From Parietichytrium sp. I65-24A (Eukaryota > Sar > Bigyra > Thraustochytrida > Thraustochytriidae): a stretch of DNA of 64,000 bases. The notes below the pieces were generated by a model. That model searched no databases. It had not been told where the DNA came from and saw nothing but the letters and a program-made list of their open reading frames with translations. Position numbers and translations under genes: made by a program. This document shows, piece by piece, positions 29,059 through 63,942 of the stretch (position 1 is its first letter; every line of letters starts with the position of its first letter). The stretch spans positions 1 to 64,000 of the forward strand of contig BLSF01000059.1 in NCBI GenBank assembly GCA_012862575.1. The letters run 5' to 3'.

Positions 29059-30892
29059 GCTACTGGCTCTGCCAACAAAGATAAGGTCTCGGGTTACCGT
29101 GTGCCTCTTGCCTTTCTTGTTGCTAGTTAACGAGTGGCATAATTCGTCAACTTTACAGCTTTGCAACTATTGTCATGCTCTCCGTCTCCGTCTCTTTCGC
29201 TTGTCATTGTCCATATTCCATATTCGTCCATCATTGTCCACCGCTGTCCACAGATGATGGATGCATTGAATGGGTTCTCCACCGGGTTCCGGGTTGTTGT
29301 AATTTTTTAGGAGCTTGGTTCTTGTAATTATAGTATATGGTAGACACTTGCTGACGTGTGGGTATGATTAATGGATATATAGGGGTGGGTTAATTTGAGT
29401 AAGCAGTTTCGATCTGTAGATAAATCGGTAGCTATAACATTACACCATCCCACTTTTTTCGCCTTCTCTTCCGGTCCTAGTCCGTTTGTGTAGTGGGGGA
29501 TTAGAAGGCGCTGGCCCACACTCCGACTGCCAAGAGACCCTAATTTTTAACGTAATGAGCTGTAGACTAGCCAGCCAACAATAAGGTGTGCGAGAGAGAT
29601 CTCAAGTAAAAAGAAAGCCATGTGGAGCCAACGAAACGCCCATTGTTCTTCGCTGCCACTTTTCAACTGATTCGATGTTGATTCTCTTTTTGATTCATTT
29701 AACCGTAAACTGGTTTGCAAGGCCCTTTTGTTGAACTCGGGTCGTTCCAAGCTGTCGTTTCACGGTTCAGGAGAATGAGGAAACACGGTTCATCTCGAGT
29801 GCTACCCAGATCCGTAATCGAACTGTTCCTTTACCGGTAACGAGCATACCTCCGCTGCTAGGATACCGTCTGTGAGGACGCTAAAAAGCTTTTCCGACAA
29901 GAAAGTCAGTTCATCTAGTATTATTTAATAAATCTATAACACCTCCATTACTCATTGGTGCTATTGTTTTCTTAATCTAAACGCCTAAAATTCTACTGGG
30001 CCCTCTAGTCGCTAATGCGTTCAGGTAATAGATGCTAATACATGCTAGGCACCGAGATAGCGAATTTCTTGCGAGTGCGGTATGCATTGCTAGCCCCTAG
30101 CTCCCTAGCTCCCTAGCCCACTCCACTGAACCCTAGCCACTGTAAACGGCAAAATTAGCTTAAACGGTAGAAGCAAATTACACGAAACCACCTAGGAGAG
30201 CACCTATCACAATTAGGAGGCGTGCATATGCTTGTATACATGCTTACCCCCGAAAGAGAGAGAGACAGTAGTACTCTTAGTGCGAGCTGCGTAGGAGACA
30301 CTTTGCTTTTCGAACGAAAGAACGATTGATTGATTGATCAATTGATTGTTCAATGAATTGATTGACTGTGAGCACACTGTGACAGCTGTGACAGCGTAAA
30401 GAGTGAATGAAAATTGTGACAGGTGACAGACTGAAGCAAGGAAAGTAGCAAAACAGCCCGACAGACAGAGCACAGCGCCATCCGACCCGTATCTCTAACC
30501 CATCCACCGCTCCATTCGCCCATTCATCCAGTCGTTCATCCGATCTTTGCTCATCAATCCCGTCCATCGGCATCCCACCGTGACGCCGACGCGTTGAGTC
30601 CGCCACCTCGGCCTTATTCGGCTCCAGGGAAAGTTGGTCGTTCGTTTGGTTAGGGGCTCCGCTGCGAGTACGCGCACAGTGGCGCCAGGCGGCACAAGGG
30701 TTGACGCCGCCGGAGTCGTATTGACGGAGACCGAAGTGAGACAGGCGCAGTACTCTCGGAGCAGTCGGAACGGGGAGAGAACAGACGGAACAGCGGGGCG
30801 GTTTGGCCTAACGGTGTACTGCTCGCAGTGGCGTCGTGCTTGTAACTTGGTTTATAATATTCATTGCTCGGACTTGGCTGAGCGAACTCAAC
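29059..30892. other. Divergent intergenic region, about 1.8 kb
   Basis: This lies between divergent genes and should hold two promoters. It contains a TTACCGGTAA palindrome near 29831 and an ATTG/GATTGATT-rich patch at 30325-30370. No gene, transposon or RNA was recognised. Confidence 0.4.
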
Positions 30893-33800
30893 ATGGAATC
30901 TAAAGACGCCGACAAGGCGCTGGAGAATGTAGCAATGGAGATACTTGGATCGCCAACGCAGCAGCAGCAGCAACAACAACAACAACAACAACAGGGAGAG
31001 GGGCAGGGGCAGCATTCGCAAGGCCCGGTGGCGACAGAAAACAGACACAGAAAACCCCCTCCAAGGCCCGTGAGCAGATCCGTGTCGTTCTCGGATGTGC
31101 CAAACAGTGATTCGGGGGAAAAGAAGCTTTCCGTCCCTCCTGAGACGGAGCCAACGGAAGAGGACTATAGGGAGAAAGAAGACGAGGCAACGGACATCAG
31201 TCTCAACAAAATGACGATGGAAACAGACCGCTTCAGACCGGTGTCTGGCTCTTTTAGCGAACCAAGGCTGAGCCGAAGGGGCACCACCGGCTTCTTGGCA
31301 TACACCGTCGCAAAGTACATGAACCAGAAGGATGACTACGATATATCCGACGGAGTGCCACTGTACGAGATCTTGAAGGCGTCCAGGACGTTGAAAACAC
31401 AGAAGAAGGTGTGCGAGGGCATCATATACCTTTTGTTCTTCCTATCGTTTGCCATTTTAGTTTCCAGTCTTCGGCGAAGCAGCATCGCAGGAGAGTCGGC
31501 GGCTGCTATATTGGATCTCTTCCTGGACGAGGAGTTCTCCTTGGTGGACCATGACGAACTTTCAGAAATAGTACCGTACTTCAAAAAAAGCTACGACGAC
31601 ATCATGACGCAGGAGGAGTGGTGGCTCTGGGCCCTGGGCCCGTTGGCAAAAGGGCTCTTCTCCACATCCATCGACAACGCTACCTCTCCGCCTTTTGGAC
31701 CTGCGCTTCCACAGAGCTTTGGACAACTTTACGTCCTTGGGGGGGACCAGGGCGGGGTAATTCTTCGGACTGCGCGAGTCTCGGGCTATGACTGCGCCCC
31801 AGCGTCTCTCGGGATCGAGCAATCATGTTATGGAAAGTGGGAAAACGGCTTGGGCAGCACTGACAGTTTTGGAAACGGACTCAATGTAAGCCCGATGGTC
31901 GGTAAGGGATTCACGTTTCGGGACTATGGATTAGACAGCGTTCTTGTGGGAACCTTTCTCGGAAGCTTGCTAATCGGCAAGAACGATTACGGCTCAAACG
32001 GTTTTTATGTGGATCTGCCAGCCACAAATAAAAATAATCAAAGTCTCGACGCTTTGTTCGAGCTATTCGATAACGGCTGGCTTGATGAGCAGACGCGTGT
32101 CGTATCTGTCGAGTTCAACGTGTACAATCCTGCGTCCCGGATCATTACTGCAGTTCGTTTCTTTACAGAGTTTTCCCACGCTTCAATGGTTCGCACATCG
32201 TATCGCCTCTACCACATTAATGCTATGATGTGGTTTGACGGAGGAAGCTGGATTTTCTTTCTTGTGGTTGTGTTCCTTCTGTTGTTGACCAGCTTTTCTA
32301 TAAAATGGGTGAGCGCTTTTGTTTCGGCACCTAAAGCCTGGAATCATTTCCGCCGGTTCTACGTTGTGTTCGATTTGCTGATCCTCTCGCTCTTTTGGAT
32401 ATCTACATTCTGGGTTCTTTCGCTCACCGCTTCGTCCGACAGCCTCTCCGTTGAAAAATTTCGACCAACTCTGTGGAGCCAAAACTTCACGTCTCAGATT
32501 TTCCCAGAGGCGGAGAGCTTCCATGATATCGACGCCCTCTGCTCTGTCAACCTCATGCTAGCGACCGTCAAACTCATCGGCTACTTGCCTTTCAAAACAA
32601 CCAGGACCATCTGGTCGACACTTGGAGCGGCAGCGAAAGACATCATGGTTCTTGGCATCGTTGTCATCTTGTTTTGGTCAGGGTTTTCTGTGGGATCCCA
32701 CCTGACTTTTGGCCCGCTCGGCTTTTTCGAGTTCGACCGGATCGACCGCACCTTTGGGACCTTGATGGTGCTGATGTTTAGCGGAAGCGTGGACTTCAAC
32801 GCCATGCGCCAGGTCTCCTTCATGTCTGCGCCAGTATTTTACGCCGTCTACATGATCTTCATGTGGGGAGTCATGCTCAACTTGTTCGTCGCGATCATCG
32901 TTCTTACCTATGAACGGCACACCAGTACCCAGCAAAATTTTGACAATTGGGCAAAACAATATCACGGTACAGAGTATGGCTCAATCATCATGATCTGGCC
33001 GGAGAGGGTCTTTCACAGGTTGCGCCGACAATACTTTCGCCTTCGCCGCCGAATGTACACCAAAGAGGTTCAACAGCTGGAGAATCAGCCCGAGCTTGAG
33101 CTCCGCAGCATGCGAATTCGGATGGACTCGGAAATCTTGGCAAGATCGATGAGCAAGGTCATGTCCGTTCGACCTGGTCACGAAAGAGAGTACCTCGCAA
33201 AGGCACTGGGGTACCCTTTCAGGAGATATTTTCAAGAGAAAGCACGCCAAGTTATCTGGCTTCGTGAGGTAAAGCGCACCCGTTTGTTCTTGAAAATGTT
33301 CTATGAAGATGATGAGTCTCAGAACACATTTCTTGGTAAGTGGCGTAAAGAATTCGACTATGCTCGAGGCTCCAACACAGGTTCCTATAGTATTTCCGAG
33401 TTCTTCAACTCGACGTGGGCGAAATGCTGCCGCAGGAATACCGTCCCGGATTCGCCAGTATCGGATTCGGACAGTACCGTGGACCCCAGCGAAAGCCTGA
33501 TGAGCTCCCCAGACACAGTTTCTACCCCAAAAACGTCTCGATCGTTTAACTCGACACATCGCCGCTCTCACTCAGGCACTGTCGGCAGCAGTAGATCGAT
33601 TCACCAAAATAAAGAGGTGATGCGTATGCGCCACGTGCTTGTCATCAATGAAATCGTCAAGCAAGAGACTGAGCTTTTGACGGCCAAGGGAGCCATCGAA
33701 GCGGTCTTGCGGGACACACAAACTCTTTTCAAAAAGCATCGACTCAGCTTCAACCGAATCATGAGCCTCACCTGGAACAAAACTACCAACGAGGAGCGCC

Positions 33801-34174
33801 TGCAAGAACTGAGCTTCACGGAGCTTCGCGAAATCCTCTCCCCTGGCTGCTTGGAGGATCGCGTGTCTTGCAGGCACTGCTCCGAGACGATTGTCGCCGA
33901 GCGTGCCAAAACGTTGATTACAAACTATGCCTTGCTCAAAAAGCGGAGGCAGGTCTTTGCTGAGAACGCGTTGCGAGTTCCTCGGTTCAGAAGACTTCAG
34001 CTACGAAGCAAGCCGTTACAGTTCGACGATGCTCAGAGCGTGGCCTCTTCAGCTGCCTTCAACAAAAATAATGTGAATCTGGCCATGTTGACTACCAGCA
34101 ATGGCACAAACTCCAGGCCGTCCTCCATCTCGAGGCCGACCTCTCTGTCCCTCCAGTTGAAAAACCAGTTGTAA
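30893..34174 (+). CDS. Polycystin-2-like (TRPP) cation channel
   Basis: A 1,093-residue intronless channel protein starting MESKDADKAL. Residues about 22-33 are a polyglutamine run encoded by CAG/CAA. TM1 is near 173-195. A large extracellular polycystin domain (about 200-445) holds NGFYVDLPATNKNNQSL and WLDEQTRVVSVEFNVYNP, the family signature of a Trp, TR and YN motif. TM2 to TM5 lie near 449, 489, 546 and 583, the pore loop near 614-640 and TM6 near 645-675 (MIFMWGVMLNLFVAIIVLTY). The usual LGD filter of PKD2 is here FSGSVD, so selectivity may differ. The C-terminal about 400 residues are cytosolic, basic and Ser-rich, with no clear EF-hand. Protist relatives sit in cilia or the plasma membrane. 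Confidence 0.88.
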   Translation: MESKDADKALENVAMEILGSPTQQQQQQQQQQQQGEGQGQHSQGPVATENRHRKPPPRPVSRSVSFSDVPNSDSGEKKLSVPPETEPTEEDYREKEDEATDISLNKMTMETDRFRPVSGSFSEPRLSRRGTTGFLAYTVAKYMNQKDDYDISDGVPLYEILKASRTLKTQKKVCEGIIYLLFFLSFAILVSSLRRSSIAGESAAAILDLFLDEEFSLVDHDELSEIVPYFKKSYDDIMTQEEWWLWALGPLAKGLFSTSIDNATSPPFGPALPQSFGQLYVLGGDQGGVILRTARVSGYDCAPASLGIEQSCYGKWENGLGSTDSFGNGLNVSPMVGKGFTFRDYGLDSVLVGTFLGSLLIGKNDYGSNGFYVDLPATNKNNQSLDALFELFDNGWLDEQTRVVSVEFNVYNPASRIITAVRFFTEFSHASMVRTSYRLYHINAMMWFDGGSWIFFLVVVFLLLLTSFSIKWVSAFVSAPKAWNHFRRFYVVFDLLILSLFWISTFWVLSLTASSDSLSVEKFRPTLWSQNFTSQIFPEAESFHDIDALCSVNLMLATVKLIGYLPFKTTRTIWSTLGAAAKDIMVLGIVVILFWSGFSVGSHLTFGPLGFFEFDRIDRTFGTLMVLMFSGSVDFNAMRQVSFMSAPVFYAVYMIFMWGVMLNLFVAIIVLTYERHTSTQQNFDNWAKQYHGTEYGSIIMIWPERVFHRLRRQYFRLRRRMYTKEVQQLENQPELELRSMRIRMDSEILARSMSKVMSVRPGHEREYLAKALGYPFRRYFQEKARQVIWLREVKRTRLFLKMFYEDDESQNTFLGKWRKEFDYARGSNTGSYSISEFFNSTWAKCCRRNTVPDSPVSDSDSTVDPSESLMSSPDTVSTPKTSRSFNSTHRRSHSGTVGSSRSIHQNKEVMRMRHVLVINEIVKQETELLTAKGAIEAVLRDTQTLFKKHRLSFNRIMSLTWNKTTNEERLQELSFTELREILSPGCLEDRVSCRHCSETIVAERAKTLITNYALLKKRRQVFAENALRVPRFRRLQLRSKPLQFDDAQSVASSAAFNKNNVNLAMLTTSNGTNSRPSSISRPTSLSLQLKNQL
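30958..30993 (+). repeat. CAG/CAA repeat encoding polyglutamine
   Basis: An in-frame run of about 12 glutamine codons, first CAG then mostly CAA, inside the channel gene's cytosolic N-terminus. Confidence 0.85.
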
Positions 34175-37510: not shown

Positions 37511-38484
37511 ATCCGCGGGGACGTTACGCCGTTACTGATTTCTGCCGTTTCGACTCCACTCGCTGTATGCACCATATGCACCATATGCACGTGCATTTAT
37601 TTTTTCATCACGAGATTTTCTTGCTGGTTTCTTTTGTTTCTTTTCAAAAACAGAATTCAGAAACAAATTGGGTTCCCCTCTGCGTATTTCTGTTCGTTCT
37701 GTTCTTTTGCTCCTTTTGTTCCTTTTTGGTGGGCATTCTAGGAATTCTAGGAGTTGACATAACGATTCACGAATCTCGAAGGCTACGAATGATCAGTAGC
37801 AAACACTATGTCTGTTCTATTATAGCGCGACATTAGTATCCTCACATCTTCCAGACTCCAAATGGATGAGGTGTATCCTGCTAGCCAGGACTATGTTTCC
37901 ATATCTAATCAAAGTTTACTCATGTTTAATCTGCCTCTACGTCGTCCAGATAGCAAGAGCTACTAGCTAGCGAGCAAAGTAGCGAGAATGAACGTAGGAG
38001 GTGGAGTGCATTATAGATAATACTGGCGAAGTAGCTAACAAGAGCGATACGTGGGATAGTCGGATAGTCAAGGGATTCACTAAAATCAAGCGTCAGTGAG
38101 ATTCCTAGCTACCGGCTAGCTAGTAGAGAGGAGTGATTGACAACATCAGAGACAACGTCTGAGAGAGTAGAGTCGGGACTGTCGGGACAGAAGAAGAAGA
38201 GTGACAACAGTGACAAAAACAAGACTCAGTCGCGGAGAGAAGGTCTGAATTCTGACAAAGTGTGACACTTTGTACTGAGCACTCGAGTACTGAGCACCAC
38301 CGCGAGACAGGTTTGTTGGTTTCTTTGTTAGTTGGTTGGTTTGTGTTTGTCGGGGCCTGTCGTAGATCCAGTGGCAAGTCGCGGACCGTCAGATAGCAAG
38401 TGAGCTGAGCCTCTGAGCACTTTGAGCGAGTGAGTGAGTGAGTGAGTGAGTGAGTTTTTGCTGTGGGACGGGCGGAGCGGGAAA
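37511..38484. other. Divergent intergenic region with short repeats
   Basis: This lies between divergent genes. It holds a short GCACCATATG tandem repeat near 37569-37590, CTAGCTAG-rich DNA near 37960-38120 and a (GAGT)n tract at 38424-38455 next to the downstream ATG. No gene was seen. Confidence 0.45.
38424..38455. repeat. (GAGT)n tract just upstream of the DeSI-fusion gene
   Basis: About seven to eight GAGT units on the coding strand, ending 30 bases before the ATG. Confidence 0.75.
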
Positions 38485-40263
38485 ATGGCTCAAGTGCAGT
38501 GCTACATGTATGACCTGTCCATGGGAGCGGCCAAGGCTATGGCGCAGTCGCTGATAGGTATGCACGTGGAGGGCGTGTGGCACACGGGCATTGTGGTGTT
38601 TGGCAAGGAATACTTTTATGGAGGCGGGATACAGTCCCTGCCTGTGGGGCAGTTTGGGACCGAGTATGGGATGCAGCCGGTGAAGAAAGTGGTGCTTGGG
38701 AGCACGACGAAGACTCAGGAGGAACTGCACGCCTTTCTACAAACGGTGCGCTCACAATATAGTATGGAGACATACGATTTGTTTCGCAATAACTGCAACA
38801 ATTTCTCTGATGCGGTGGCGAAATTTCTGCTGAACGGCACCGGTATCCCAAGCGACGTCATTGAGCTCCCGAACCGCGTGCTCAATACACCGATTGGGCA
38901 GATGCTTGCTCCGATGTACCAGAACATGCAGACTCAGATGCAACAACACATGGTCCCATTCAGCGGCCCAGATTCGGCTTTCGATAGCTCGAGCAGCAAC
39001 TCTCAGAGCAATGGGGAAAAGGCTGCTGCTGCTCCTGCTGCTGCTCCAGAGGGCACAGCCTCGGCGGCAACTGGAGATGACGAGGAGGATGGAGAGGACG
39101 CTGTCGAGCTTCAGCTGAAACTGTCAACTCAGGAAGCGCTCATTAAAATCAAAGTCAAGTCGCTAGAGACAACTGTTGGCGAGTTCATGGGTAAAATCGA
39201 ACGAATTGTTGGATACAGGAAGGACGACCAGCGTTTGATTTTCAAGGGAAAGATTTTGAAAGAGGGGTCGGACACGCTCACCAAGTGTGGTATCACGGAG
39301 GGTGTCGTGATTCATTTGGTTCCAAAACCAAACGCAAACCGCGACAACAAGACGTCCAGCCCAGCAGCCGCGCCGCAGGCAAGTAGCGACCCCTTTGATG
39401 TGGCTTTGGAGAAAATCAAAGGAGCTTCGGAAGAGGCGCGCAACACAGCATTGAAAACGCTACAGAAAATTGTACAAAACGTAATCAACTACCCCCTGGA
39501 GCCAAAATATCGAAAGATCAAGAAAGAGAACCCCGCACTAGTCAAGCGGCTGGGCTCTGTTCCCGGCGCGTTTGAGAGCCTTGTCGCGCTTGGGTTTTCA
39601 GAGCAGGAAGAGGGCGGCGAGAAGCTTCTTGTACTGGATGCGACCGAGACTGCTTGGAACAAGGTATTGAGCGGCAACAAAAAGCTGGTGGATATCCTTG
39701 GGTCGCCTTCTGGCTCAGGAGGGGCTGCTGCGCCAGCGCCAGCGCCTGCCCGGAGCAGTCAACAGCAAGGCACGGCAAGCCCGTTCGGATTCCCAATGCC
39801 TTCGGGTTTCGGTGGGAGTCAGTTTGGAGGTGCTGGGGGCGGCGGCTTTCCATCTTTTTCCCCGGAGATGATGCAAAGCATGATGAGTGACCCTCGCGTC
39901 ATGGAGCACGCAAGGCAGATGTTCTCCAACCCTGAGATGATGCAGCAAATGATGAACAACCCCATGGTACAATCGCTCATGCAGGCTAACCCGGCTATGA
40001 ACAGCCAAATGCAGGCCGCATTGCAAAATCCTGAGCTAGTGAGCTCGATGTTCCAGCAACTTACTCAGAACCCGCAGATGCTGCAATCTCTCATGGGCGG
40101 AACTGGTGGAATGGGGGGTGGTTTTGGCGGCGGCATGCGCGGCGGCCAGCAAGGCACACCTAACCAGCAAGGGAATGCGAACAGCAACTCTCAAAATGAC
40201 CCACAGATGACGGAAGAGGAGATGATTCAGGAAGCCATTCGACGATCGCTGCAGGAGCAATAA
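38485..40263 (+). CDS. DeSI peptidase fused to Ubl, PUB, STI1 and UIM modules
   Basis: A 592-residue protein starting MAQVQCYMYDLSMG. Residues 1-140 are a PPPDE/DeSI thiol peptidase, with catalytic His33 in VWHTGIVVFG and Cys104 in RNNCNNFSDA (family roles: deSUMOylation or deubiquitination). Residues about 206-285 are a ubiquitin-like fold (VELQLKLSTQEALIKIKVKS, then QRLIFKGKILKEG). About 300-400 is a PUB domain (FDVALEKIKGASEEARNTAL, then YRKIKKENPALVKRLGSVPG), which binds p97/Cdc48 tails. About 455-545 holds ubiquilin-like STI1 repeats (SDPRVMEHARQMFSNPEMMQ). The C-terminus TEEEMIQEAIRRSLQEQ is a ubiquitin-interacting motif. The whole suggests a shuttle that trims a ubiquitin-like tag and links clients to Cdc48 and the proteasome (inference). 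Confidence 0.88.
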   Translation: MAQVQCYMYDLSMGAAKAMAQSLIGMHVEGVWHTGIVVFGKEYFYGGGIQSLPVGQFGTEYGMQPVKKVVLGSTTKTQEELHAFLQTVRSQYSMETYDLFRNNCNNFSDAVAKFLLNGTGIPSDVIELPNRVLNTPIGQMLAPMYQNMQTQMQQHMVPFSGPDSAFDSSSSNSQSNGEKAAAAPAAAPEGTASAATGDDEEDGEDAVELQLKLSTQEALIKIKVKSLETTVGEFMGKIERIVGYRKDDQRLIFKGKILKEGSDTLTKCGITEGVVIHLVPKPNANRDNKTSSPAAAPQASSDPFDVALEKIKGASEEARNTALKTLQKIVQNVINYPLEPKYRKIKKENPALVKRLGSVPGAFESLVALGFSEQEEGGEKLLVLDATETAWNKVLSGNKKLVDILGSPSGSGGAAAPAPAPARSSQQQGTASPFGFPMPSGFGGSQFGGAGGGGFPSFSPEMMQSMMSDPRVMEHARQMFSNPEMMQQMMNNPMVQSLMQANPAMNSQMQAALQNPELVSSMFQQLTQNPQMLQSLMGGTGGMGGGFGGGMRGGQQGTPNQQGNANSNSQNDPQMTEEEMIQEAIRRSLQEQ

Positions 40264-52572: not shown

Positions 52573-55500
52573 CTAAATAAACTTCTTCACCATCACAGGT
52601 TGCGAAGCTGCGTTTCGCAGCGTCTTCTTGGCGGCAGTGTTACGCAGCTCTTGCAACCTTTTTGCCACGGCATCGGTTCCAACAATAAGCCGTGTGTCGA
52701 ATTTCTCGAAAAGAGCGTAGAACCGAATCAACGCTCGGCGCTGCTCTACATTTAGGGCGTCCAAGTTAACGCCACGATCAGAGATCTCCCAGTACTCTTC
52801 TCCATTGAGTTTTTGAAAGTCCCCCCAGATTAGCTTGAGTGTGCCTCCGTGTAAGTCCTTCAAATATCCGTAGAGGCGACGCACGTCGGAGTCGTCATCG
52901 GTCATCTTGTCACCAAATTCCGAGATAAATACTGTGGCAAGCTTGAAGAGTGCTCGCAGGACGCCGCGCTGAGTATAGTCAATTCGCGAATAGCCTTCAA
53001 GCATAGATTGCTCCGGAAGATCGAATTCCTTCAAAAACATTCCCAGAGCATCCAAAACGAGCTCATAAGTTTCAGCAAGATCGAGATGCCTTGCAAATGC
53101 ACATATCACACACATGTCATGGATGATATTCTCGCATGATACACCGAGTCCTCGTGCAAGGCTCAAATGTGCATAGTGCTTGAGATGGGATACCATGTCT
53201 GCAACTAGATCCCCCAGATGCGACCCGGGGTCCCCGTGCGTCACGCTACAGTTCATGCAGTATTCTATAAAGAACCTGTATTGAAGCACTATTGTGTCAG
53301 CAGCCCTGTCATCCCCCTTGTTTATCGCGATTTGAAGAATAGTATTCATGAATTTCACAGCCATGCTACTTCCTGCAAAATCGCCTGCGCGAACAGCGGT
53401 TTGTCCAACATGCCGAAACCCTCTAGAAACCCGCAAAACAGCATCAGAGAACTCGCCCAGGCTAACCTCAAACATCTTCAACATCTGGCGCAATCCCTTC
53501 CACTGAACCCAGGTACAATCGAACTCCATGTCGCAAATGACGGCTTCACTGAGCGAAACGAAATCTGGGTCCTTAGAGACTGGCTCATACACGTGCGCGT
53601 CCCAACCAGAAGGCCCGCGCTTCATCTTCTTTTTTATGTATGAAAGCAGAAATGCACAAGTCAGATCAATGCCATGAAATGCGTTGTGCTTGTCTTTCAG
53701 CCGCAGCGCTCCAAGCGCATAGTCAGAAATCTCATCTAAACTAGACATGACTCTGCTTTGGCGTTTTGTAGCATCTTCTCGTGATTGCGCCAAATGCTTT
53801 GCCCCGCCACTGTCTCGCTGACTTGAGCGGACTGACCCATTTCTTGCGTTTCGCTCTTCCTCTCGGCCATTCGTGTGAAGCCGCTCCGCAGCTAGAGTAC
53901 TTACGGCTGTGGATACCCGTGCGCCAGCTCGATCTGTGTGTCTGAAGAGCTTGTGCTGGTCATTTGTCGGAGGAAAAGCGTTTCGGAGACCCTCATTAGC
54001 AATTTCTCGGAACAACTTTGCGGCATCCAAAAATTGCAGCAAGTGCGCGATATATGGCATAAGCAGTAGAAACGATGCAACCATGGCAATCACCGAAAAG
54101 GTGTACCCGATTGGGCTAACCGAGTTCTTCGTGACGTACGACGCTTGTATTTGCACGAACGTGGCGGACGTGAAGAACACGATGAGCACGATAACGATCC
54201 GAATATTGCGAAGGAACAGCGCCGCAACGCGCGGTGTGTAACGAGACGAGTTGATTTGAATGATGATGGTCGTCACGGTCACAATGCAAGAGAGAAGTGT
54301 GAACAAAATAAGAGACATCGTGCTTAGCGTATTTGCACGCAAGTCAAGGTCTTTTGTTCCGTTGATAACGGCGACCAAATCCGGATCTGTGCACAATGAA
54401 AACGGCGGATTCTCGCTTTGCTCGGAAGAATGTATCAACGCGATTCCGCAATCCGTCAAAAAAGTCGGGAAGGCTACGAGCACTATGATTGCTGGCAATA
54501 CGTGCAGTGCTCTTGACCACAGCGAACCCATATCACGCTTCACTCCCGCGTTTGGTCCCTTGCCAGCTGTGCGTACGGCCTTTCCGCTTCGAAGTCTGCG
54601 TAAGGTGTGTGACACAGTGCCTTCGCCCATGTGTTTCGGGCTTGCAGCTGCGTTCTCGGCTCCGCCTTTGAACGTTTGTCCAGTCGAAAATGTGTCTTGT
54701 CGAATGGACTTTGTCGAAGCGTCCGGAGGAAGCAGGGTCACCAGGTTGCTGGCACTTCCGCGTTTGGACATGCGCAGCATGTGTGCTCGCTGAACATTGC
54801 CAACGCTCGAATGCCGGCTTTTTCTGGAGACTTGCTGTGGTGGGTCGGAGTCGCCTTCACCCAAACCAAAGGAATAATCTGCTGAACCCCTACGATGCTC
54901 CGGCCGAAAGTCTTCATCTTGCAGCTTCTCGACCATGTCTGCAGGACTGTTGATTTCAAGATCCCGCTCCTTCTTCACAAGGGCCTCGCGAGCTTCGCGA
55001 ATTTTCAGAAGCTTCCGCCGAATAGCAGTGCGTCCTAACACGATCGCAGACAGTCTGTGCGGAGTTGCCGACAGGTCATCCGGCTCCTCAAAGTGTTGTC
55101 CGCTCAAAGAAGTAGAGGTCCCAAGGCCGCTTTTACTGTTGATTAGCTGTCGCGAGGGCAAGTGATCATTTGAATTTGGAGCAGCTCGAGTTCGGGTAGA
55201 AACAAGGATACTGACCCGCTCTCCAAGCTTTGCCTCCGCAGAGCTTCTGGAGGCAGAATCGGAAGCTGCAATCTCGCTTGCCTCGCTGAGCCTGCTGAGA
55301 GAGTGGCTCAACTTGTCTTCTTCAATGCCATCCTCCCGCGAATGTTCCTCTATATGCACGAACGTTTCCTCCCTCCTTGCGACTCGGGAATCACCGGGAT
55401 TCACAACACCTTCCAGAACCATGGTAGAACGATCACGCAGTTGGTCCTTCGACATCCACGCAAAGAAATGCATCAGGCAACTTCGCCTTTCTTCGGAGAG

Positions 55501-58500
55501 ATAGTCAAAGTTGGAGCCTCTGTCATTGATTTCCCAAAAATCCCGTTCTGTTACTCCTTCGAGTTTGTTCCGGATCACTTGCATCAATTCGTTGGTGCAA
55601 TAGTCGCGCAGTTTTGAAGCGATCGAGTATGCACGCCCATTGTCTCCTCGCTCCAAATACAAAGTTGCCAGCCTCACACAAGCCCGGCCAATTGCCTCCA
55701 GATTCGTTCGATGCTCGGCGCAAATCCTTTGGCGAAACTCAAGCGAGTTCTTCTGTAAAGTCAATCGAATGGTCTTCCCGCTCTTGTCCACCTTGCTGGG
55801 CAAGTGGTTGAAAAAGTCGAACATTGACAAAAGTTCTCCTAGAATCCTATCATTCGCAGCAGAGTTGTCAAAGCCCAGCAGGTAGGCTGTCTCACACAGG
55901 CTCCCGATATCGAATGCAATGATTTCGACGACAAAGTCCAGACGCATATCGACGGCCACCGAGGCGTAGTATCTGAAGTACTTGGAGATTTGCGTTGCTG
56001 TTTTCAGCTGGAAGGAGCTTGCTTTTCCCGCGCTTGTTGTCTTTGCGTTCGTCACAATAAGGAGCTCAGCAAACTGCCTGTATTGGTGCAAAGTGTTGTA
56101 GATTATTCGAACTCCGCGCTGGTTCATTGCAGTGCGAATAAAAGTGTTAAAAATTTGAATAATATGCTCCGTCACGTGCTGATCGTGAATGTGCAGCGCG
56201 CTTTGTCCTAATTTGACAGTCTCTATCGCCAGAAGTAGACATCCCTCTGGAAGATGCTTGATTGCCTCCGTGAATAAGGACAGATATTGTCGAAGTAGCT
56301 CTGCCTCCACCCAAATCCGCTTCTCTTTCATTTCTTCAAGATGTTTGAATTCCAAGCTTTGAAAATCTTGCGAGTTTCGTACTGCCTTGGTGGTGGCGTC
56401 AAACCACACGTCATGCAACTTTGGCTTCAGCGCGCCGTATTCTTCACCTAGCTGTGACATAATTCGAACAACGTTGTTAAAATTGTGCTTGTCCTTCTCA
56501 AGCAGAGATGCCCCTGCGAAGCTTCCAAATTGCTGCACCGTTTTGGCAAAGCTATTCTGGGCCCGCAAGACATCGAGAGTTTTGCTTGAGTCCAAGCTGG
56601 TATCAAATGCGCGGATTTGCTTCATCGTGTCCCTGAGCATTCGCGATACCACGCGGTTAGGGTCCAGAAACTCGAAGAGGGTTCCAAAGTACGGAAAGAG
56701 CATGACGGTCATTAATGTTACCAGCAACGCGCTCAATATTATTGGCGCGCGGGCATAGTCTCCGTCCTCGATTACGAAGCCGCCCTCCATCCGAGGATCG
56801 CCTTCCACCACTGTGCTGCCATTTGATTCGGAAAAGTGAACCCAAAGTGCGTATACCGACGAGATCGAAAAGAAGGAAAGCATCGTGTACACACGTACGT
56901 CCTTAAAATACTGCTCCGAGATTACCCCGAGTAGATGACGCGAATTGATCTGCAGCATAATGAGCGTTGGTGTCATGACAATACAAAAAATCATGATCGC
57001 AGATTTGGCCAGGGTTTTACTCACGCGCTGATTATCTTCTGGTGCTCGGACTTTGAAGGTCACCGACAGCGGGCTAACGCCATCAAATACCCAGAGGTCC
57101 AACCCAGTGGTTATCAAGAGCAGTGCAATGTTGGTTAAGAAGACCAGCACTATTGGAATCCAGCTGATTCGCACTAGACTCTTGTGCCTCACCTCCGTCT
57201 CGGCATTTTTATGAGCTGAGATATCGTTTCCAGGTCCCGCAAAGCTCCCCACACTTGAGCCATGGTGGGGCATATTTGGCGTGAGTAAAGCTCTTGCCCT
57301 CACCGCCAGCTCGCGAGACAAGGTCATCAAGGCCCCGTCCACCCCCGCAAGTTGCTGCGGAGAAGACCCGTCTGAGTTGGATCGCACTCCAAGAAAGCTA
57401 GAATTCTGACCAAGATCTATTTTTGCTTGTGCCACCTGCCGAACTGTTTCCTCGCAAGCCTTTCTCAACTTTTCTGGAAACCGGGGGAGGGCCTGTTGCA
57501 CCAACATGCGTTTCTCCGCTGAAGTATGATCAATGTTGTACATCCTCTCGTTAATCTCCCAAAACTGCTCAGCGACTGGGTCGACCGCGCATATGTCGGC
57601 GAAGGCACCAGCAAAAGTGTCTTCGTCCTCTTCTTGAAAAAGCTCTTGTAACACAGACTCGGCGTGTTTAAGGCATTTCATATGTGTGTAGTGTGCGAAC
57701 AAACGAAATTGGGTCCTCCGAACCCCGCGGCGGGCTGCTTCCGAATTATGATCGTATGCCCCCAAGTAAATCTTGAGCAAACGGTCGTGCGCGCCGGAGT
57801 TCTTCCTTGCCGCCGTAACGCACATCATAGAGATGTCATGGTTAATCAACTCAGTTAGAAAAGGCAATTTACACGCGGAGCTTGCCAGGGCGTAATGCCG
57901 AAAGTACCATGCAATGTCAAGGACGTATGCTTCAAAATCGGCAGGGCTCAGAGTACATCCGCTCGACACAAGCCTGTTGCTAAGGATGTTCTCCACGAGC
58001 TGGCGGTATTGGTACACGATGCTGTACACCAGTCTGGCATTCTTTCGGTCAAGTGAAATCTTTATGTACGTGTTGAGAACCTTGATGCAGAGATCAAGCA
58101 CGCCAAGATCCTCCTTTTTGAATGCCGCCTCCGCCAGGTGCTTTGTGAGCACAGCGACGCGATAGCAGACATCAGGGACGGAGTCTATGCTTTCGGAGAA
58201 GAGAAAAAGGTACTCTCTAAGGAGTTTCCACTCCAGCCAGGCTTTGTCCTCCTCTAACATTTTCCGAAACTGCTTTGTGAGCCGTGCAAATGTCTCTGAC
58301 TGAGCAATGTCCGGGTGCTCTTTAAAGATCGAGAAGAAAGTCGTAGGTAGCTTGTCCTTGAGAGACAAGTAGCTAACTGCAAGGCAGTAAAGAGCTGTGA
58401 CGCATTTGAATGCGCTGTTCTTGTTCTTTGCTCGAATCGCCGTACATGCAAAATCCGTCACCCGGTCAATAGAGATCACAATCGTGTGAATATTTTCCGG

Positions 58501-61500
58501 AACCTGAGCGATAAGAGCCTCACCCTTTGCTCTATGCGAGAGGGATACTAAAAGCCCTAAATCCGCGGCAACTATCTGGGTGAGCAGCTTGTCCTCATCC
58601 AGGAAGACGAACAAGTATGAGAAGTACGGATAGAGTGTCAAAATGCACAGCGAAGAAAGGAAGAGAGTGATAACGGAGAGAACGGGGCGGTAGGTCGAGT
58701 AGCTGGACTGCGCATTCCATAACGCGAGTACCACGGTGACAGAGTTTAACATCCACGTCAACTTGATCCACCGATCACTTTGGTACATGCCCCAGACGTG
58801 CTTCACCATACGAGCGGCAGACTTTTGGAGCGCGATCAAGGAGCACATAACAATGACCGAGAAGCTGCGCACAACAATTTCCATCGAAAGTGTTGTGTCC
58901 ACCATCTGTAGCTGTCCAGCCTGTACTGCCAAAATTCTTGCGAAGATGCTTCCTTCACCAGATGACCATGAGCTGGACAGCAACATGAAGAGGCATACGA
59001 CAACGATACCAAACAGGACCGGGAGAACAAGCAGGTTTCGAACAGTAACCAGCCCGCTCCTTTCGCGATTTTTGGGAAACAAAAGATCGAGAAAGTCCTC
59101 TAAAGTCTCGTCAACACCGTCGTTGTCGTGAAGAATAGCATCGTTTACAAATTCCCCACCCGTCATACTCGCCGAAAGACGCTGGCCGCCGAGTGATGTA
59201 CGCCGGAAGCCAAATTGTTTTGCTTTGGTTGCTTTGTGCTTTCCCTTTTGGGGTTGCGTTTGATGGCGATCTCGGTGAATCTCTTTCAAGGTTCTCGGAC
59301 GAAACCCATCAAACCCAATGTCCAAGTCACACTTGCCTTCGATGATTCTCTGGGCGAACTGCGAAACAGACTCAGCTGGTGAACGAACATTGAACGAATT
59401 CTGTTGCCGACTGGCTTCCACCATGTCAAAAAACTCGGGAAGCACTCGTTTTTTAGCCTCATCCAAAAAGTTGAGTGGAACTCCCAGCTCGCTAACCTCC
59501 CAGAATTCAGCCCTGTTAGTCGTCAGAAGCTCCTTAACAAGAACAATCTGGCGGGCATAAGGCTCGTCGATCAAATCATTAGCTATGATCTGTGCGTGGT
59601 ACTTATGGCCAGTCGTTAGATATGTCGTTGCCAACTTCACTTGAGCTCTGCGAACGCCAATGAGTGTTTTTTGGTCTTGCTCAGCAACGTCGTCCACCGT
59701 GAGCAAAAGCTCGAGTATGTTTGTGTGCAGCTCCACTCCAAATTCTTGCGCAAATGCGCAGACCTGACTTAATGAGTTGGCCACAGCTTCTGCGACGATT
59801 CCAACGTCTTGTTCGAGAGAAAGCTGCGCATAATAACGTAAATACCATGCTTGCTTTTGCAAAATAGCGCCCCATGGCCCGCGCAAGAAGGGTGCCGCCT
59901 TGGCGGAGCATTTTTGAGAGGTTATGTTCAGCATAAGCTTCTCAAGTTGCGCAACTACGTGGCAGGCAACCTGGTCTTTCTTCGATACAATTGCTCTTCG
60001 CATGAATGTGTTGAAGAATTGCAGGGCGACGTTATACGCTTCGAGATCGTCCGTGGAGAGAAATACTTGCGCAATGAGACGTGTATGAAGACTGATGTTT
60101 TGACAGGCTTCGATCCGATTTCCATTCAAGCATTCCTCAAAAATTAGCAAATATTGCGAAAAAACTTTCCACTCAAACCAGACTTTACTGTTCGAGAGCT
60201 GGATCACTCTCGCGCTAGAAAAGTTGATGAAATCCGAGGTGCGACGAAGTTTTCCGGACACCATAAACCACAAATTGGGGAGCGAGCGCTTCACTTTGGA
60301 ATATTGACGTACCAACCATTTCAGCGTGCTAAGTGCCTCGGTCAAATTTTGTTCGTCCGATTGCTGAACACAAGCAAAACCAAAATCGCAGATTCGCTTC
60401 ATGTGCTCGTGCGCAAGATACTGGTGGGTCCGAATCAAATTTTTGATCTCTTCGGGGATTTGCTGTGAGAGCCGGCGAGCCTGGGACCTCTCCTCGATCG
60501 AAGGTGTTGGGGGGGACCTAATGTCGTTCTCCTGATCAAATTCGTGAACAGCCTCTTCGTCGTCCTCTGCCTCCACGTCGGATATGTTGTCTTCAACTCC
60601 CATGGGCTGAAACCCACCACCGCCGAGCCTTTCGACTTGTGAGCCATCAGGAGAACCGATCTCGGAAATCATAGATGCTTTCCTTGCCGCAACAATGGTG
60701 CTGCGCCTTCTTTTCTGCAGAACAGGAATATGCACTGCAAGATCCACTGCATGCCGAACGTGCGTGTATGCTTGTTTCCGGACCTTGCGAAGGATACGCT
60801 CAGGCTGAAGGACATAAAAAAGGCGAACGAAATACGCCGCGAGAGAGGCGACCTCCAAGCACACCAAGACTCCGAGGGTAGGAACCAAGGCAGGTGCCTG
60901 AACTCCTATTTTTCGGACATAGGTCACCGCAACAGTTGCTAGCGAAGATACAACCACCAGCCAACAAAGAATAAAGTAAAGGACAGGGTCTCGCAGGAAA
61001 GAAAGCATATCGGGATGGAATTTGTACCTCGCCGAAACAAGCTGCAAGATGATCATTGACGTCACGCATAGAAGGACGAAGACTAACACTGTCACGACTG
61101 CGAATCCACCAATAAGAGCATTCATGGACCGTTCATCGCTCTGATTGCTTTGCATGCCTAGGAACGCAAAATAGAACGAGGATTCCTCCGGCCAAGCGTT
61201 AAAACACAGTCCAAACACGGTTATGAGCCAAAGAGAAGCCGAGTGAAGCGCGAATATTTTAAAACTGGAGTGCGAGTTCGCAACCTTTGCTTTTAGGACT
61301 GCAAGCTTCCCAAGAGGCCCGGAGTGTTGCGAGCCCACCACACTTTCACGGCCATTTGATTGGACGGCTTCAAAGTCTTCGGAATCCATCCCTTCGCTCG
61401 ATATTTTGGCTCGGTTTATCGTGTCCGGTGGGTCCGAAAAAGCGACGCTCCTTCGCACGCTCTGCGACTCTCGCCGGAGCTTGACAACACTGTCCATCTT

Positions 61501-63942
61501 CAGAAATTCGGTACCCTCCAGAGCCTCTTCGATTTTGAAACCATCGAACCAAGAGAAAAAAGTCGCCAGCGTTGCTTTGTTCTCGGGCCGCAAATAATCC
61601 AGGTTTTCCGGGCGAAATGTAATTTCCCAAAACATCTCAGTATCGTTTGCGATCAGGTCTCGGTAGAGATTTTTCACTCTGAAAAGAGGCTCGTCAAGCA
61701 TGTCGCGGTGGATTTCCTGGGCAAGAGCCAGCTCGTCGTGGACCAGGTACATGGTCGCCAATTTCACTTGAGCGCGGCGAATTCCGCGATGGATGGACAC
61801 CTGTGTTGAGCCTTTCTGGCTGTCGTCTAGAGTTAGGAATATGGACAACAACTCCTCGTGAGTTTGCACCTGGTAAGTATACGCCTGAGAGCACAAAGTG
61901 CCAACATCGTGAGCGAGCATTTCAGATATGATGGACAACCCTTTCGATGAACTCAAACTTAAATAAAACCGCATAAAAGTCACAATATCAACGACACTCT
62001 TGTTACAAGCTTCAAGCTTGGAATAGAGTGAATCCTTGAGCTCCTCGGCCCGGACTGTCGCCCCACTTTTCTTCGAAGTCAAGCTACTGAGCAGCTTGTT
62101 GGAAACTGCCCGGACCCCACTAGATAACCTTCGTGACATGGATAATCTCCCGCCCGGAGATTGTGAGCGTAACTTTGTTGAAGCGTTGCGATTCCCAGGA
62201 GACGGTGAAAATTTTAGCGAGCTGAACGAGCCTAAGCTCGCCTGAGAATCCAGCCCGCTCTTTGGAATCAGCGGCGACCCTGGGGACTTTGGAGCTGCAT
62301 AGCGGAGGTCCTTCTCTTTGAATACGGCTGCGGTGAATTCGCGCTTGAATACATGCAGTTTCTTGCTTAAAGACTTGGATGTCTCCTGTGATACCAAGTG
62401 AGCCAAATTATCGCCAGAAGACTCTAAGGACTCCAGTGTCTCCCGAATAGTAGCGGCGAGAACGATGAGATGGCTGGCAAGCTCACGGTACTCGTTAAGG
62501 ATTCCAGAAAGGATTCGGATTCCTTTGCAGTTGATGAGGAATCGAATAAACGTGTTGAGGAATTTGATACAAAGCGTAAGGGTTTCCATGTCTCCGTTCT
62601 CAGCAGCAAGCTCGCCAACTTTTCGAGTGTAGAATGAAGCCAAGCCGGCAAGGTGGGGCGAATTTAGTGTGCACGCGGTCTCGAATAGTATTTGGTACGA
62701 CCGCAAGATTTTCCACTCCACCCACGTCTTCTGGGACTCCATCAACTCTAGCGAGGTGAGTGAAAGCGACGAAAAGTCTGGCCGTGCTTTAATAGGAGGA
62801 GAGAGTATATACCACGAGGGTGGGATCCCATGAGCGGCTTTGGCCGCTGCATATGAGCACGAAATAGTGTAAAGGGAAAGCATCGCATTGTTCGCGTGCT
62901 CTTTGTCCTTTTGCTTCAGAGTTGAAAGCCCGATGTCGGCCAGCAGTTCGATTGCGTTTATCCATTCCACTTGCCGATGCGCGACTTTATCAAAATACAA
63001 ACTGTCCGCTTTGCTAGATTGGCCACCTGCGCCGTCTTCCAGCTCGTCGGCTTGCCGAAATTTACCCGCACCTACCTCCTTTTTTCCCCCCTCGTTAATT
63101 GGGTGCAAGATGGATCGTGCTACGGATTTCGACGAGGAGGAAGTGCCATCGTCTGGATGGATCTTGGACTTTGCAGACGCTGACTTTTGCTTCTCGCGCG
63201 CGGCGCTCTCTTTCACGAGGCCAGATATCTGGTCCAGACCGACCTCTCTCACCTGCTTGATCAGTGCATCGGGACTCAGAAAATTTACCAAGAAGTTGAA
63301 ATATGGAAATGTGATGGATAGTGCCAGGAAGCGAAGCGAAACCGCAAGAAAGAGAGGTACCCTAGGAACGTAGTTTCTCGTCATCATGATGTCCACAAGA
63401 CCACCAAATAAAGCTGCCACACACATGAAAGCCAAGATCGCGAACACGCCGCGATTCCGGAAGAAGAGGGATATCGTGTGCGGCAAAAAGTTGGCTGCAA
63501 ACATCTGCAACACCACAAAGGAAGAGGTCACTAGAAGACCCAGCAATATGACAATGTCTCGGGTCGTCATGTCCAAAGTGAGTCGCAATTGCTCCACATC
63601 TTCTTCGGAGAAGATCCAGATGTCTAACACACCGTCACTTCTGAACTGCAGCGCCAGTGGAATAAGGAGAACAAGGGCAATTATCGGGAGGCCAACGATG
63701 GGAATGACAACGAACCGCACATAATCATTCCTCACTCGCAAACGCTGCCCGAGAGACAGCAATCTCCCTTTAAATCCCCCGGACTTTTCATCTACACCAA
63801 AATAAGACGACACTGAGTTTCGTCTGGACATCACACTCGACTGCGACACCGAGTTCACACTCCTCCGCCTTTTATGCTGCGCCTGTGTCGCTGTTTCATA
63901 TTGATCATCCGCGAGACTCAGCCGCCGCCCTTCGCGCTCCAT
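52573..63942 (-). CDS. Giant protein with five tandem DUF2254-like membrane modules
   Basis: One intronless frame of 3,789 residues from ATG (MEREGRRLSLADDQYETATQ) to TAG. It contains five copies of one module, with four-helix membrane blocks near residues 75-225, 890-1050, 1637-1780, 2264-2425 and 3147-3304. Each block has the DUF2254 pattern around helix 2 and 3, for example IIIQINSSRYTPRVAALFLR (module 5). Each is followed by a helical cytosolic part that repeats the motifs WVEWKILRSYQILFE, FLNTFIRFLINCKGIRI, RGIRRAQVKLATMYL and FWEINDRGSNFDYL. The FWEI motif falls near residues 770, 1479, 2127, 2801 and 3717. Bacterial DUF2254 proteins are single modules of about 400-450 residues in the inner membrane with no settled function. 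About 20 membrane helices and five cytosolic domains suggest a large transporter, channel or scaffold (inference). Confidence 0.82.
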   Translation of the reverse strand: MEREGRRLSLADDQYETATQAQHKRRRSVNSVSQSSVMSRRNSVSSYFGVDEKSGGFKGRLLSLGQRLRVRNDYVRFVVIPIVGLPIIALVLLIPLALQFRSDGVLDIWIFSEEDVEQLRLTLDMTTRDIVILLGLLVTSSFVVLQMFAANFLPHTISLFFRNRGVFAILAFMCVAALFGGLVDIMMTRNYVPRVPLFLAVSLRFLALSITFPYFNFLVNFLSPDALIKQVREVGLDQISGLVKESAAREKQKSASAKSKIHPDDGTSSSSKSVARSILHPINEGGKKEVGAGKFRQADELEDGAGGQSSKADSLYFDKVAHRQVEWINAIELLADIGLSTLKQKDKEHANNAMLSLYTISCSYAAAKAAHGIPPSWYILSPPIKARPDFSSLSLTSLELMESQKTWVEWKILRSYQILFETACTLNSPHLAGLASFYTRKVGELAAENGDMETLTLCIKFLNTFIRFLINCKGIRILSGILNEYRELASHLIVLAATIRETLESLESSGDNLAHLVSQETSKSLSKKLHVFKREFTAAVFKEKDLRYAAPKSPGSPLIPKSGLDSQASLGSFSSLKFSPSPGNRNASTKLRSQSPGGRLSMSRRLSSGVRAVSNKLLSSLTSKKSGATVRAEELKDSLYSKLEACNKSVVDIVTFMRFYLSLSSSKGLSIISEMLAHDVGTLCSQAYTYQVQTHEELLSIFLTLDDSQKGSTQVSIHRGIRRAQVKLATMYLVHDELALAQEIHRDMLDEPLFRVKNLYRDLIANDTEMFWEITFRPENLDYLRPENKATLATFFSWFDGFKIEEALEGTEFLKMDSVVKLRRESQSVRRSVAFSDPPDTINRAKISSEGMDSEDFEAVQSNGRESVVGSQHSGPLGKLAVLKAKVANSHSSFKIFALHSASLWLITVFGLCFNAWPEESSFYFAFLGMQSNQSDERSMNALIGGFAVVTVLVFVLLCVTSMIILQLVSARYKFHPDMLSFLRDPVLYFILCWLVVVSSLATVAVTYVRKIGVQAPALVPTLGVLVCLEVASLAAYFVRLFYVLQPERILRKVRKQAYTHVRHAVDLAVHIPVLQKRRRSTIVAARKASMISEIGSPDGSQVERLGGGGFQPMGVEDNISDVEAEDDEEAVHEFDQENDIRSPPTPSIEERSQARRLSQQIPEEIKNLIRTHQYLAHEHMKRICDFGFACVQQSDEQNLTEALSTLKWLVRQYSKVKRSLPNLWFMVSGKLRRTSDFINFSSARVIQLSNSKVWFEWKVFSQYLLIFEECLNGNRIEACQNISLHTRLIAQVFLSTDDLEAYNVALQFFNTFMRRAIVSKKDQVACHVVAQLEKLMLNITSQKCSAKAAPFLRGPWGAILQKQAWYLRYYAQLSLEQDVGIVAEAVANSLSQVCAFAQEFGVELHTNILELLLTVDDVAEQDQKTLIGVRRAQVKLATTYLTTGHKYHAQIIANDLIDEPYARQIVLVKELLTTNRAEFWEVSELGVPLNFLDEAKKRVLPEFFDMVEASRQQNSFNVRSPAESVSQFAQRIIEGKCDLDIGFDGFRPRTLKEIHRDRHQTQPQKGKHKATKAKQFGFRRTSLGGQRLSASMTGGEFVNDAILHDNDGVDETLEDFLDLLFPKNRERSGLVTVRNLLVLPVLFGIVVVCLFMLLSSSWSSGEGSIFARILAVQAGQLQMVDTTLSMEIVVRSFSVIVMCSLIALQKSAARMVKHVWGMYQSDRWIKLTWMLNSVTVVLALWNAQSSYSTYRPVLSVITLFLSSLCILTLYPYFSYLFVFLDEDKLLTQIVAADLGLLVSLSHRAKGEALIAQVPENIHTIVISIDRVTDFACTAIRAKNKNSAFKCVTALYCLAVSYLSLKDKLPTTFFSIFKEHPDIAQSETFARLTKQFRKMLEEDKAWLEWKLLREYLFLFSESIDSVPDVCYRVAVLTKHLAEAAFKKEDLGVLDLCIKVLNTYIKISLDRKNARLVYSIVYQYRQLVENILSNRLVSSGCTLSPADFEAYVLDIAWYFRHYALASSACKLPFLTELINHDISMMCVTAARKNSGAHDRLLKIYLGAYDHNSEAARRGVRRTQFRLFAHYTHMKCLKHAESVLQELFQEEDEDTFAGAFADICAVDPVAEQFWEINERMYNIDHTSAEKRMLVQQALPRFPEKLRKACEETVRQVAQAKIDLGQNSSFLGVRSNSDGSSPQQLAGVDGALMTLSRELAVRARALLTPNMPHHGSSVGSFAGPGNDISAHKNAETEVRHKSLVRISWIPIVLVFLTNIALLLITTGLDLWVFDGVSPLSVTFKVRAPEDNQRVSKTLAKSAIMIFCIVMTPTLIMLQINSRHLLGVISEQYFKDVRVYTMLSFFSISSVYALWVHFSESNGSTVVEGDPRMEGGFVIEDGDYARAPIILSALLVTLMTVMLFPYFGTLFEFLDPNRVVSRMLRDTMKQIRAFDTSLDSSKTLDVLRAQNSFAKTVQQFGSFAGASLLEKDKHNFNNVVRIMSQLGEEYGALKPKLHDVWFDATTKAVRNSQDFQSLEFKHLEEMKEKRIWVEAELLRQYLSLFTEAIKHLPEGCLLLAIETVKLGQSALHIHDQHVTEHIIQIFNTFIRTAMNQRGVRIIYNTLHQYRQFAELLIVTNAKTTSAGKASSFQLKTATQISKYFRYYASVAVDMRLDFVVEIIAFDIGSLCETAYLLGFDNSAANDRILGELLSMFDFFNHLPSKVDKSGKTIRLTLQKNSLEFRQRICAEHRTNLEAIGRACVRLATLYLERGDNGRAYSIASKLRDYCTNELMQVIRNKLEGVTERDFWEINDRGSNFDYLSEERRSCLMHFFAWMSKDQLRDRSTMVLEGVVNPGDSRVARREETFVHIEEHSREDGIEEDKLSHSLSRLSEASEIAASDSASRSSAEAKLGERVSILVSTRTRAAPNSNDHLPSRQLINSKSGLGTSTSLSGQHFEEPDDLSATPHRLSAIVLGRTAIRRKLLKIREAREALVKKERDLEINSPADMVEKLQDEDFRPEHRRGSADYSFGLGEGDSDPPQQVSRKSRHSSVGNVQRAHMLRMSKRGSASNLVTLLPPDASTKSIRQDTFSTGQTFKGGAENAAASPKHMGEGTVSHTLRRLRSGKAVRTAGKGPNAGVKRDMGSLWSRALHVLPAIIVLVAFPTFLTDCGIALIHSSEQSENPPFSLCTDPDLVAVINGTKDLDLRANTLSTMSLILFTLLSCIVTVTTIIIQINSSRYTPRVAALFLRNIRIVIVLIVFFTSATFVQIQASYVTKNSVSPIGYTFSVIAMVASFLLLMPYIAHLLQFLDAAKLFREIANEGLRNAFPPTNDQHKLFRHTDRAGARVSTAVSTLAAERLHTNGREEERNARNGSVRSSQRDSGGAKHLAQSREDATKRQSRVMSSLDEISDYALGALRLKDKHNAFHGIDLTCAFLLSYIKKKMKRGPSGWDAHVYEPVSKDPDFVSLSEAVICDMEFDCTWVQWKGLRQMLKMFEVSLGEFSDAVLRVSRGFRHVGQTAVRAGDFAGSSMAVKFMNTILQIAINKGDDRAADTIVLQYRFFIEYCMNCSVTHGDPGSHLGDLVADMVSHLKHYAHLSLARGLGVSCENIIHDMCVICAFARHLDLAETYELVLDALGMFLKEFDLPEQSMLEGYSRIDYTQRGVLRALFKLATVFISEFGDKMTDDDSDVRRLYGYLKDLHGGTLKLIWGDFQKLNGEEYWEISDRGVNLDALNVEQRRALIRFYALFEKFDTRLIVGTDAVAKRLQELRNTAAKKTLRNAASQPVMVKKFI

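Follow-up and report, generated by a model that had tools for sequence, protein, structure and literature searches.

The four-domain Nav and Cav channels are natural concatemers of channel subunits. DUF2254 (PF10011, IPR018723), a described family related to the protein reported here, is widespread, and our literature search found no function for it; its name is reportedly also used in a study on salmonellosis severity. Canonical DUF2254 members are single-module proteins of about 440-450 aa, and knots or slipknots are described in some of the family's AlphaFold models (2024; PMC11184937). In the window, that is, the whole stretch of 64,000 nucleotides of Parietichytrium sp. I65-24A that was analysed, one gene encodes a protein with five modules in 3,789 aa. 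This architecture was not found described in a literature search that covered titles and the starts of abstracts, subscription journals lying mostly outside its scope. The RRxS/T-rich linkers of the protein and the adjacency of MscS genes to canonical DUF2254 genes, both detailed below, are new here.

Five modules in a single open frame

We confirmed that the 3,789-residue protein consists of five modules (M1 to M5), each made of a four-helix membrane block followed by a helical cytosolic domain (Table 1). The preliminary description had read five tandem modules from the letters of the sequence, and all five were indeed recovered by a profile built only from bacteria, namely from 12 single-module proteins of the group that we call helical-type, aligned without the window sequence. 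The E-values for the modules taken singly were 1.5e-98 for M1, 3.7e-88 for M4, 1.4e-77 for M3, 3.3e-74 for M5 and 4.1e-68 for M2. On the whole protein, the same profile gave nine stretches, which together take in the membrane block and the cytosolic domain of each of the five modules in their expected succession, and it gave zero matches in the reversed protein and in the rest of the window. In M1, a linker-like insert (aa 495-645) divides the cytosolic domain. The five modules also align with one another (MAFFT), with 24 invariant columns and 21-24% identity to M5. Twenty membrane helices are expected, and 18 of them exceed a Kyte-Doolittle cut-off of 1.5; the two below it are the third helix of M3 and the third helix of M4, the latter being present in the AlphaFold model despite failing the cut-off. 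When the 12 bacterial proteins and the five modules were considered together, six columns were invariant (L205, K278, N369, Y417, W529 and E530, in the numbering of the bacterial protein L102). By definition these columns are kept in all five modules, and thus no module looks dead.

Table 1. Coordinates in the window of the five-module gene and its parts; iE, E-value of the helical-type profile match
Feature	Position	Strand	Remarks
Five-module membrane protein gene, single open frame, 3,789 aa	52573..63942	(-)	
N-terminal tail, aa 1-76	63715..63942	(-)	three RRxS sites
Module 1 membrane block, aa 77-251	63190..63714	(-)	iE 6.2e-25; Pfam DUF2254 2.4e-7
Module 1 helical cytosolic domain, aa 319-494 and 646-801	61540..62988	(-)	iE 8.4e-37 and 4.7e-41
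Module 2 membrane block, aa 893-1066	60745..61266	(-)	iE 9.8e-11; no Pfam DUF2254 match alone
Module 2 helical cytosolic domain, aa 1158-1513	59404..60471	(-)	iE 7.5e-62
Module 3, membrane block and cytosolic domain, aa 1630-2158	57469..59055	(-)	iE 1.6e-76, profile positions 30-534 of 541; no Pfam match alone
Module 4, membrane block and cytosolic domain, aa 2251-2834	55441..57192	(-)	iE 3.8e-84; AlphaFold2 pLDDT 83.5, pTM 0.82
Linker M4-M5, aa 2835-3136, 302 aa	54535..55440	(-)	no profile match
Module 5 membrane block, aa 3137-3338	53929..54534	(-)	iE 7.3e-26; Pfam DUF2254 3.4e-13
Module 5 helical cytosolic domain, aa 3381-3746	52705..53802	(-)	iE 4.3e-49

The frame begins with an ATG, has no internal stop, and is preceded by an in-frame stop with three codons between. 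This single-frame reading comes from one genomic sequence, and the frame might instead represent several genes, a mis-assembled tandem array or a chance open frame. We consider such an artefact very improbable: 3,789 codons run without a stop, and across all 19 blocks of 200 codons, those in the linkers too, GC content reaches its minimum at the second codon position. Moreover, identity between the modules and the reference module of the respective alignment is no higher than 21-28%, and they are therefore not the product of an assembly duplication.

Neighbouring genes mark the window as eukaryotic; they encode an adaptor-complex medium subunit, a polycystin-type channel, a PPPDE-ubiquitin-PUB protein, a Ulp1-type protease domain and a W2-domain protein, and Rfam and tRNA scans of the window gave zero matches. 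The polycystin-type cation channel frame (1,112 aa, 30836-34174, plus strand) lies 18 kb from the five-module gene, and the PPPDE peptidase, ubiquitin and PUB domains are combined in a single frame (38446-40263, plus strand).

Canonical DUF2254, helical-type proteins and the origin of the gene

The preliminary description had called the modules DUF2254-like, and this is true of their membrane half, the four-helix part with the SSQ/R-PR motif. Pfam DUF2254 matches the whole protein in four stretches (E 2e-18), and nothing else was found in a Pfam scan of the protein; nor did any of the five modules exceed the NCBIfam cut-offs. Module by module, the Pfam profile matched three of five, M5, M1 and, under the cut-off of 28.8 bits, M4 (1e-5, 25.0 bits), with zero matches for M2 and M3 scanned alone. 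The matches are confined to profile positions 5-185 of 368, i.e. the membrane half, and the canonical cytosolic half (positions about 186-368) is unmatched by any module. Comparison of the modules with six bacterial proteins using hhalign (E 1.5e-7) was likewise limited to the membrane half. In canonical proteins the cytosolic half contains an alpha/beta part, whereas the cytosolic domain of the modules is helical. The ALSP-NDP region, which had been matched by eye to a stretch of the modules, does fall at the right place, but the match is not significant. The canonical ALSPGINDPFTA motif corresponds to the invariant N315, D316 and P317 of the canonical protein L054; a weak alignment puts the start of the helical domain at this motif, with D kept but N and P absent from the modules.

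The canonical set was assembled starting from a consensus sequence, which led to 78 plasmid records. Six plasmid proteins then seeded a scan of genome contigs that confirmed at least 582 stretches, the best 80 of which (79 loci) were used. From a set of 85 proteins, three truncated ones were dropped (L025, L029 and L038) and 82 kept; an 80% redundancy filter left 58 genome-contig proteins, 57 of which were used (L021 left out). The model of a canonical protein computed with these 57 sequences (pLDDT 89.7, pTM 0.84) shows four membrane helices, the alpha/beta part and a helical C-terminus. In one genome, a canonical DUF2254 appears in two pieces of one frame (G083:C137:18127-18984) with profile positions 153-208 missing, possibly by internal deletion.

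Closer counterparts of the five modules than canonical DUF2254, as judged from profile comparisons, are divergent single-module bacterial proteins of the helical-type group. PF10011 searches gave matches in 25 of 119 Planctomycetota and 16 of 117 Cyanobacteriota genomes, and among these matches a second class stood out, matched in the membrane half only, like the window modules, and mostly in longer frames. Thirteen such proteins were taken, the matches G065:C425 and G151 being left out as fragments. Against a profile of the five modules, 13 of 13 gave matches in the cytosolic domain as well as in the membrane block (E 1.8e-39 to 1.4e-116). Pfam sees helical-type proteins in the membrane half only (10 of 10 tested). 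These proteins are mostly about 500-640 aa long and lack the canonical alpha/beta insert. The full-length comparison of bacterial helical-type with canonical proteins (hhalign, E 1e-17, 356 columns) was confident in the membrane half only, and the cytosolic parts compared alone reached a probability of 11%, which is not significant.

The alignment of 12 bacterial helical-type proteins with the five modules (A9, 17 rows; the truncated L097 left out) shows the ordered motifs W-E, FNT, GVRKAQ-LA and FWEI-DRG-NLDY in all five modules. The preliminary description had reported the same ordered motifs in each cytosolic domain; their order is kept, but single positions vary, M4 having EAE instead of EWK, and M1-M3 lacking a full DRG. 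The motifs W-E, FNT-R, RRAQ-KLA and FWEI-DRG are marks of the bacterial helical-type group and no eukaryotic addition. Bacterial helical-type proteins such as L102 (genome G125) and L108 (genome G210) are homologous to the modules over both halves, with identical motif order; they differ in having one module per frame instead of five, and the 12 aligned proteins are without the long inserts of M1, M2 and M5.

One module per frame was the rule in the bacterial frames compared, as had been stated beforehand: it held for 85 of 85 canonical and 33 of 33 distinct helical-type frames (L127 and L097 partial), and a second copy sought among 110 neighbour proteins at 20 helical-type loci was not found. 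Nor did the bacterial genomes, plasmids and viral contigs searched yield a five-module relative. Some helical-type loci have long frames, the longest of 1,753 aa, which were considered as fusions and ruled out as GC-rich false frames, like that of canonical L072; the long upstream frames in G025, G301, G272, G257, G030 and G314, and that of L072, have a shifted codon-position GC and hold zero further modules.

Helical-type proteins, recognized by matches reaching well into the cytosolic domain, occur in at least 20 of 294 Planctomycetota genomes, a lower bound because at most four candidates per genome were scored. Any match was seen in 43 of these 294, those beyond the helical type being canonical membrane halves. 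Phylum labels of the genome samples are those of the loci that served as sample centres; in these terms, helical-type proteins were present in 5 of 244 Cyanobacteriota genomes, in 4 of 198 from the phylum of a Bacteroidota genome, in 1 of 194 from the phylum of a Chthoniobacterales genome and in 1 of 148 from the phylum of a deltaproteobacterial MAG. None was found in 299 Pseudomonadota and 149 Actinomycetota genomes, samples without a known positive; the same alignment did give matches in the four samples just named. In 29 further genomes with canonical DUF2254, every match ended by position 236 of 548. Viral contigs gave zero matches for M5 and M4, and plasmids zero matches for M5 and the helical-type L102, though canonical relatives are found there. 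One helical-type match (G322:C468:3861-5408) counts two TGA codons inside it. Three relatives (L152, L153 and L154, two of them cyanobacterial) sit on a very long branch (3.9) and are perhaps a third type.

A tree was computed from the five modules and 33 distinct helical-type proteins of bacteria (from 44 frames). The modules group together in a single clade (97/95; recovered in 97% of 200 bootstrap trees), and its neighbours are seven planctomycete proteins (97/94). Long branches lead to every module, and according to a warning of the program M1 with M2, and M3 with M4, are possibly joined falsely. When the modules were placed quickly one at a time, M3, M4 and M5 joined the same seven planctomycete proteins (87, 94 and 82), M2 joined the planctomycete clade with a support of 0, and M1 went elsewhere with a support of 11. 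Since the five modules form one clade beside a planctomycete clade, we favour, without regarding it as proven, a single acquisition followed by tandem duplication within the gene. According to this scenario, supported by the profiles and the tree, the eukaryotic gene would have taken over a single-module bacterial-type protein of the helical-type group, which may then have been duplicated in frame until five copies were present in one chain.

Gene neighbourhoods of the bacterial relatives

Canonical DUF2254 genes are often found next to genes for MscS-type channels. An MscS-type gene occupied position -1 in 13 of 55 cases (57 loci), all on the same strand, and in 8 of these 13 pairs the two genes overlap by four bases. 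Within two genes of canonical DUF2254 the count was 21/205, versus 1/308 at four or more genes away, and the linkage persisted without cyanobacteria (7/151 versus 1/230, p 0.007). The Pfam domain MS_channel_2nd was found in 15 of 105 nearest neighbours (two of 107, over 900 aa, were left out of the scan) and in 5 of 98 second neighbours. The MscS-adjoining loci include L008, L013, L022, L056, L070 and L075, and come from cyanobacteria, a Rhodothermaceae and an Abditibacterium MAG. On plasmids, a Na+/H+ antiporter, ClcA or MscS lay within a few genes at three of six loci and was absent at the other three. For the canonical genes, the MscS neighbourhood offers a lead as to function, in the direction of osmotic or ionic balance.

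At 20 helical-type loci, one MscS gene was found, and none of the 25 families listed from 114 neighbour families was a recurrent ion-transport family. Four Bacteroidota helical-type loci (L175-L178) share three downstream genes of about 175, 205 and 365 aa; the first encodes a protein with about two membrane helices, and the L175 copies of the three are without a Pfam match.

These neighbourhoods bear on a different role for the five-module protein. A DUF2254-type protein could be an accessory that modulates an MscS-like channel or membrane tension, and the eukaryotic chain could do likewise for a eukaryotic channel. The frequent position of canonical genes directly after MscS, with the overlaps given above, agrees with such a role. 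However, the helical-type loci offer a single MscS gene, and a gene neighbourhood cannot tell a partner from a parallel channel; we regard this explanation as unlikely.

Assembly, linkers and comparison with known systems

Each module would cross the membrane four times and carry its alpha-helical domain on the same side, which we read as the cytosol; with four helices per module, all cytosolic domains are indeed expected on one side. We tentatively propose, with slightly less than even confidence, that the acquired and duplicated module forms a pseudo-symmetric, channel-like assembly of five units with kinase-regulated linkers. In this model the bacterial module would be a homo-oligomer, and the five eukaryotic modules may lie side by side in one pseudo-symmetric membrane complex. 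In its favour we count the five complete modules, against one per bacterial frame, the invariant columns kept in each, the RRx[ST]-rich linkers, and the MscS and plasmid ion-transport neighbourhoods of canonical genes. The ring is suggested by the five repeats, by analogy with natural channel concatemers. The complex would most likely let ions or small osmolytes through, as a channel or a conduit resembling a pore. Against a channel assembly stand the observations that the MscS linkage belongs to the canonical type, with a single MscS gene at the 20 helical-type loci, and that for the bacterial model there is no solved structure alike enough to suggest a channel. Indeed, a PDB fold search with the canonical model gave nothing informative, the best match (E 0.017) being a designed repeat protein, and the best hit of a sequence search of solved structures had an E-value of 0.069.

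The M4 model, computed with 43 sequences, shows four helices in the membrane, and its cytosolic domain is entirely helical. In the PDB it matches a designed toroid (E 1e-4) and, weakly, TPR and HEAT/armadillo-like helical-repeat proteins. Such scaffold-like matches fit another reading, in which the modules are beads on a string and do not close into one ring: the chain would serve as a scaffold in the membrane or as a sensor of tension, its helical domains would recruit partners, and the copy number would raise avidity only. The long linkers, up to 302 aa, would give the freedom that such an arrangement uses. For a pure scaffold, however, five complete membrane blocks with their invariant columns kept would be needless, and we consider the beads arrangement unlikely, though it deserves some weight.

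The number of modules may also differ from the number of units in the complex, as in a multimer of two chains with ten modules, or in paired modules with a dimeric bacterial unit. Two-pore-domain K+ channels are a natural precedent for a repeat number that differs from the stoichiometry of the complete complex. A dimer-based unit is not easily reconciled with an odd module count, and we hold a different stoichiometry to be improbable.

The linkers comprise 1,071 residues in ten stretches outside the profile matches. They wholly contain nine RRx[ST] sites, against one in 2,718 module residues, and one more, at aa 1156, lies across a boundary. Shuffled linkers had a mean of 1.78 sites and 0 of 5,000 reached nine, in a test that was not blind because the motif had first been noticed by eye; RRx[ST] was chosen from several patterns counted, four first and then three nested. 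Seven further large frames in the window were compared: four had no site, two had one, and the polycystin frame had three in 1,112 aa, a density about equal to that of the five-module protein as a whole. We propose that the linkers are putative targets of basophilic kinases, and that the protein may be regulated via PKA/PKG-type sites in these disordered segments, much as through the CFTR R region.

In a more specific version of the channel-like assembly, the single chain with its five repeats would be a natural pseudo-pentameric channel with a new fold, would descend from a bacterial homo-pentamer and would be gated by linker phosphorylation; taken as a whole, this version is rather unlikely. 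If the pseudo-pentameric channel were true, the stoichiometry of the large DUF2254 family could be read from a eukaryotic gene. The covalent five-fold version is in any case a natural experiment on subunit number, and yields a specific prediction of stoichiometry for the bacterial proteins.

The CFTR R region is an RRxS-rich segment inside a membrane protein, and the five-module protein likewise carries RRxS-rich segments inside a membrane protein. In the latter, the sites are spread over several linkers and the Pfam match is to DUF2254 only, unlike CFTR. Like the Nav and Cav channels, the five-module protein unites in one chain several copies, since diverged, of a single-subunit protein of bacterial type. 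It differs from them in having five copies, no known fold relation to these channels, and a channel function that is putative.
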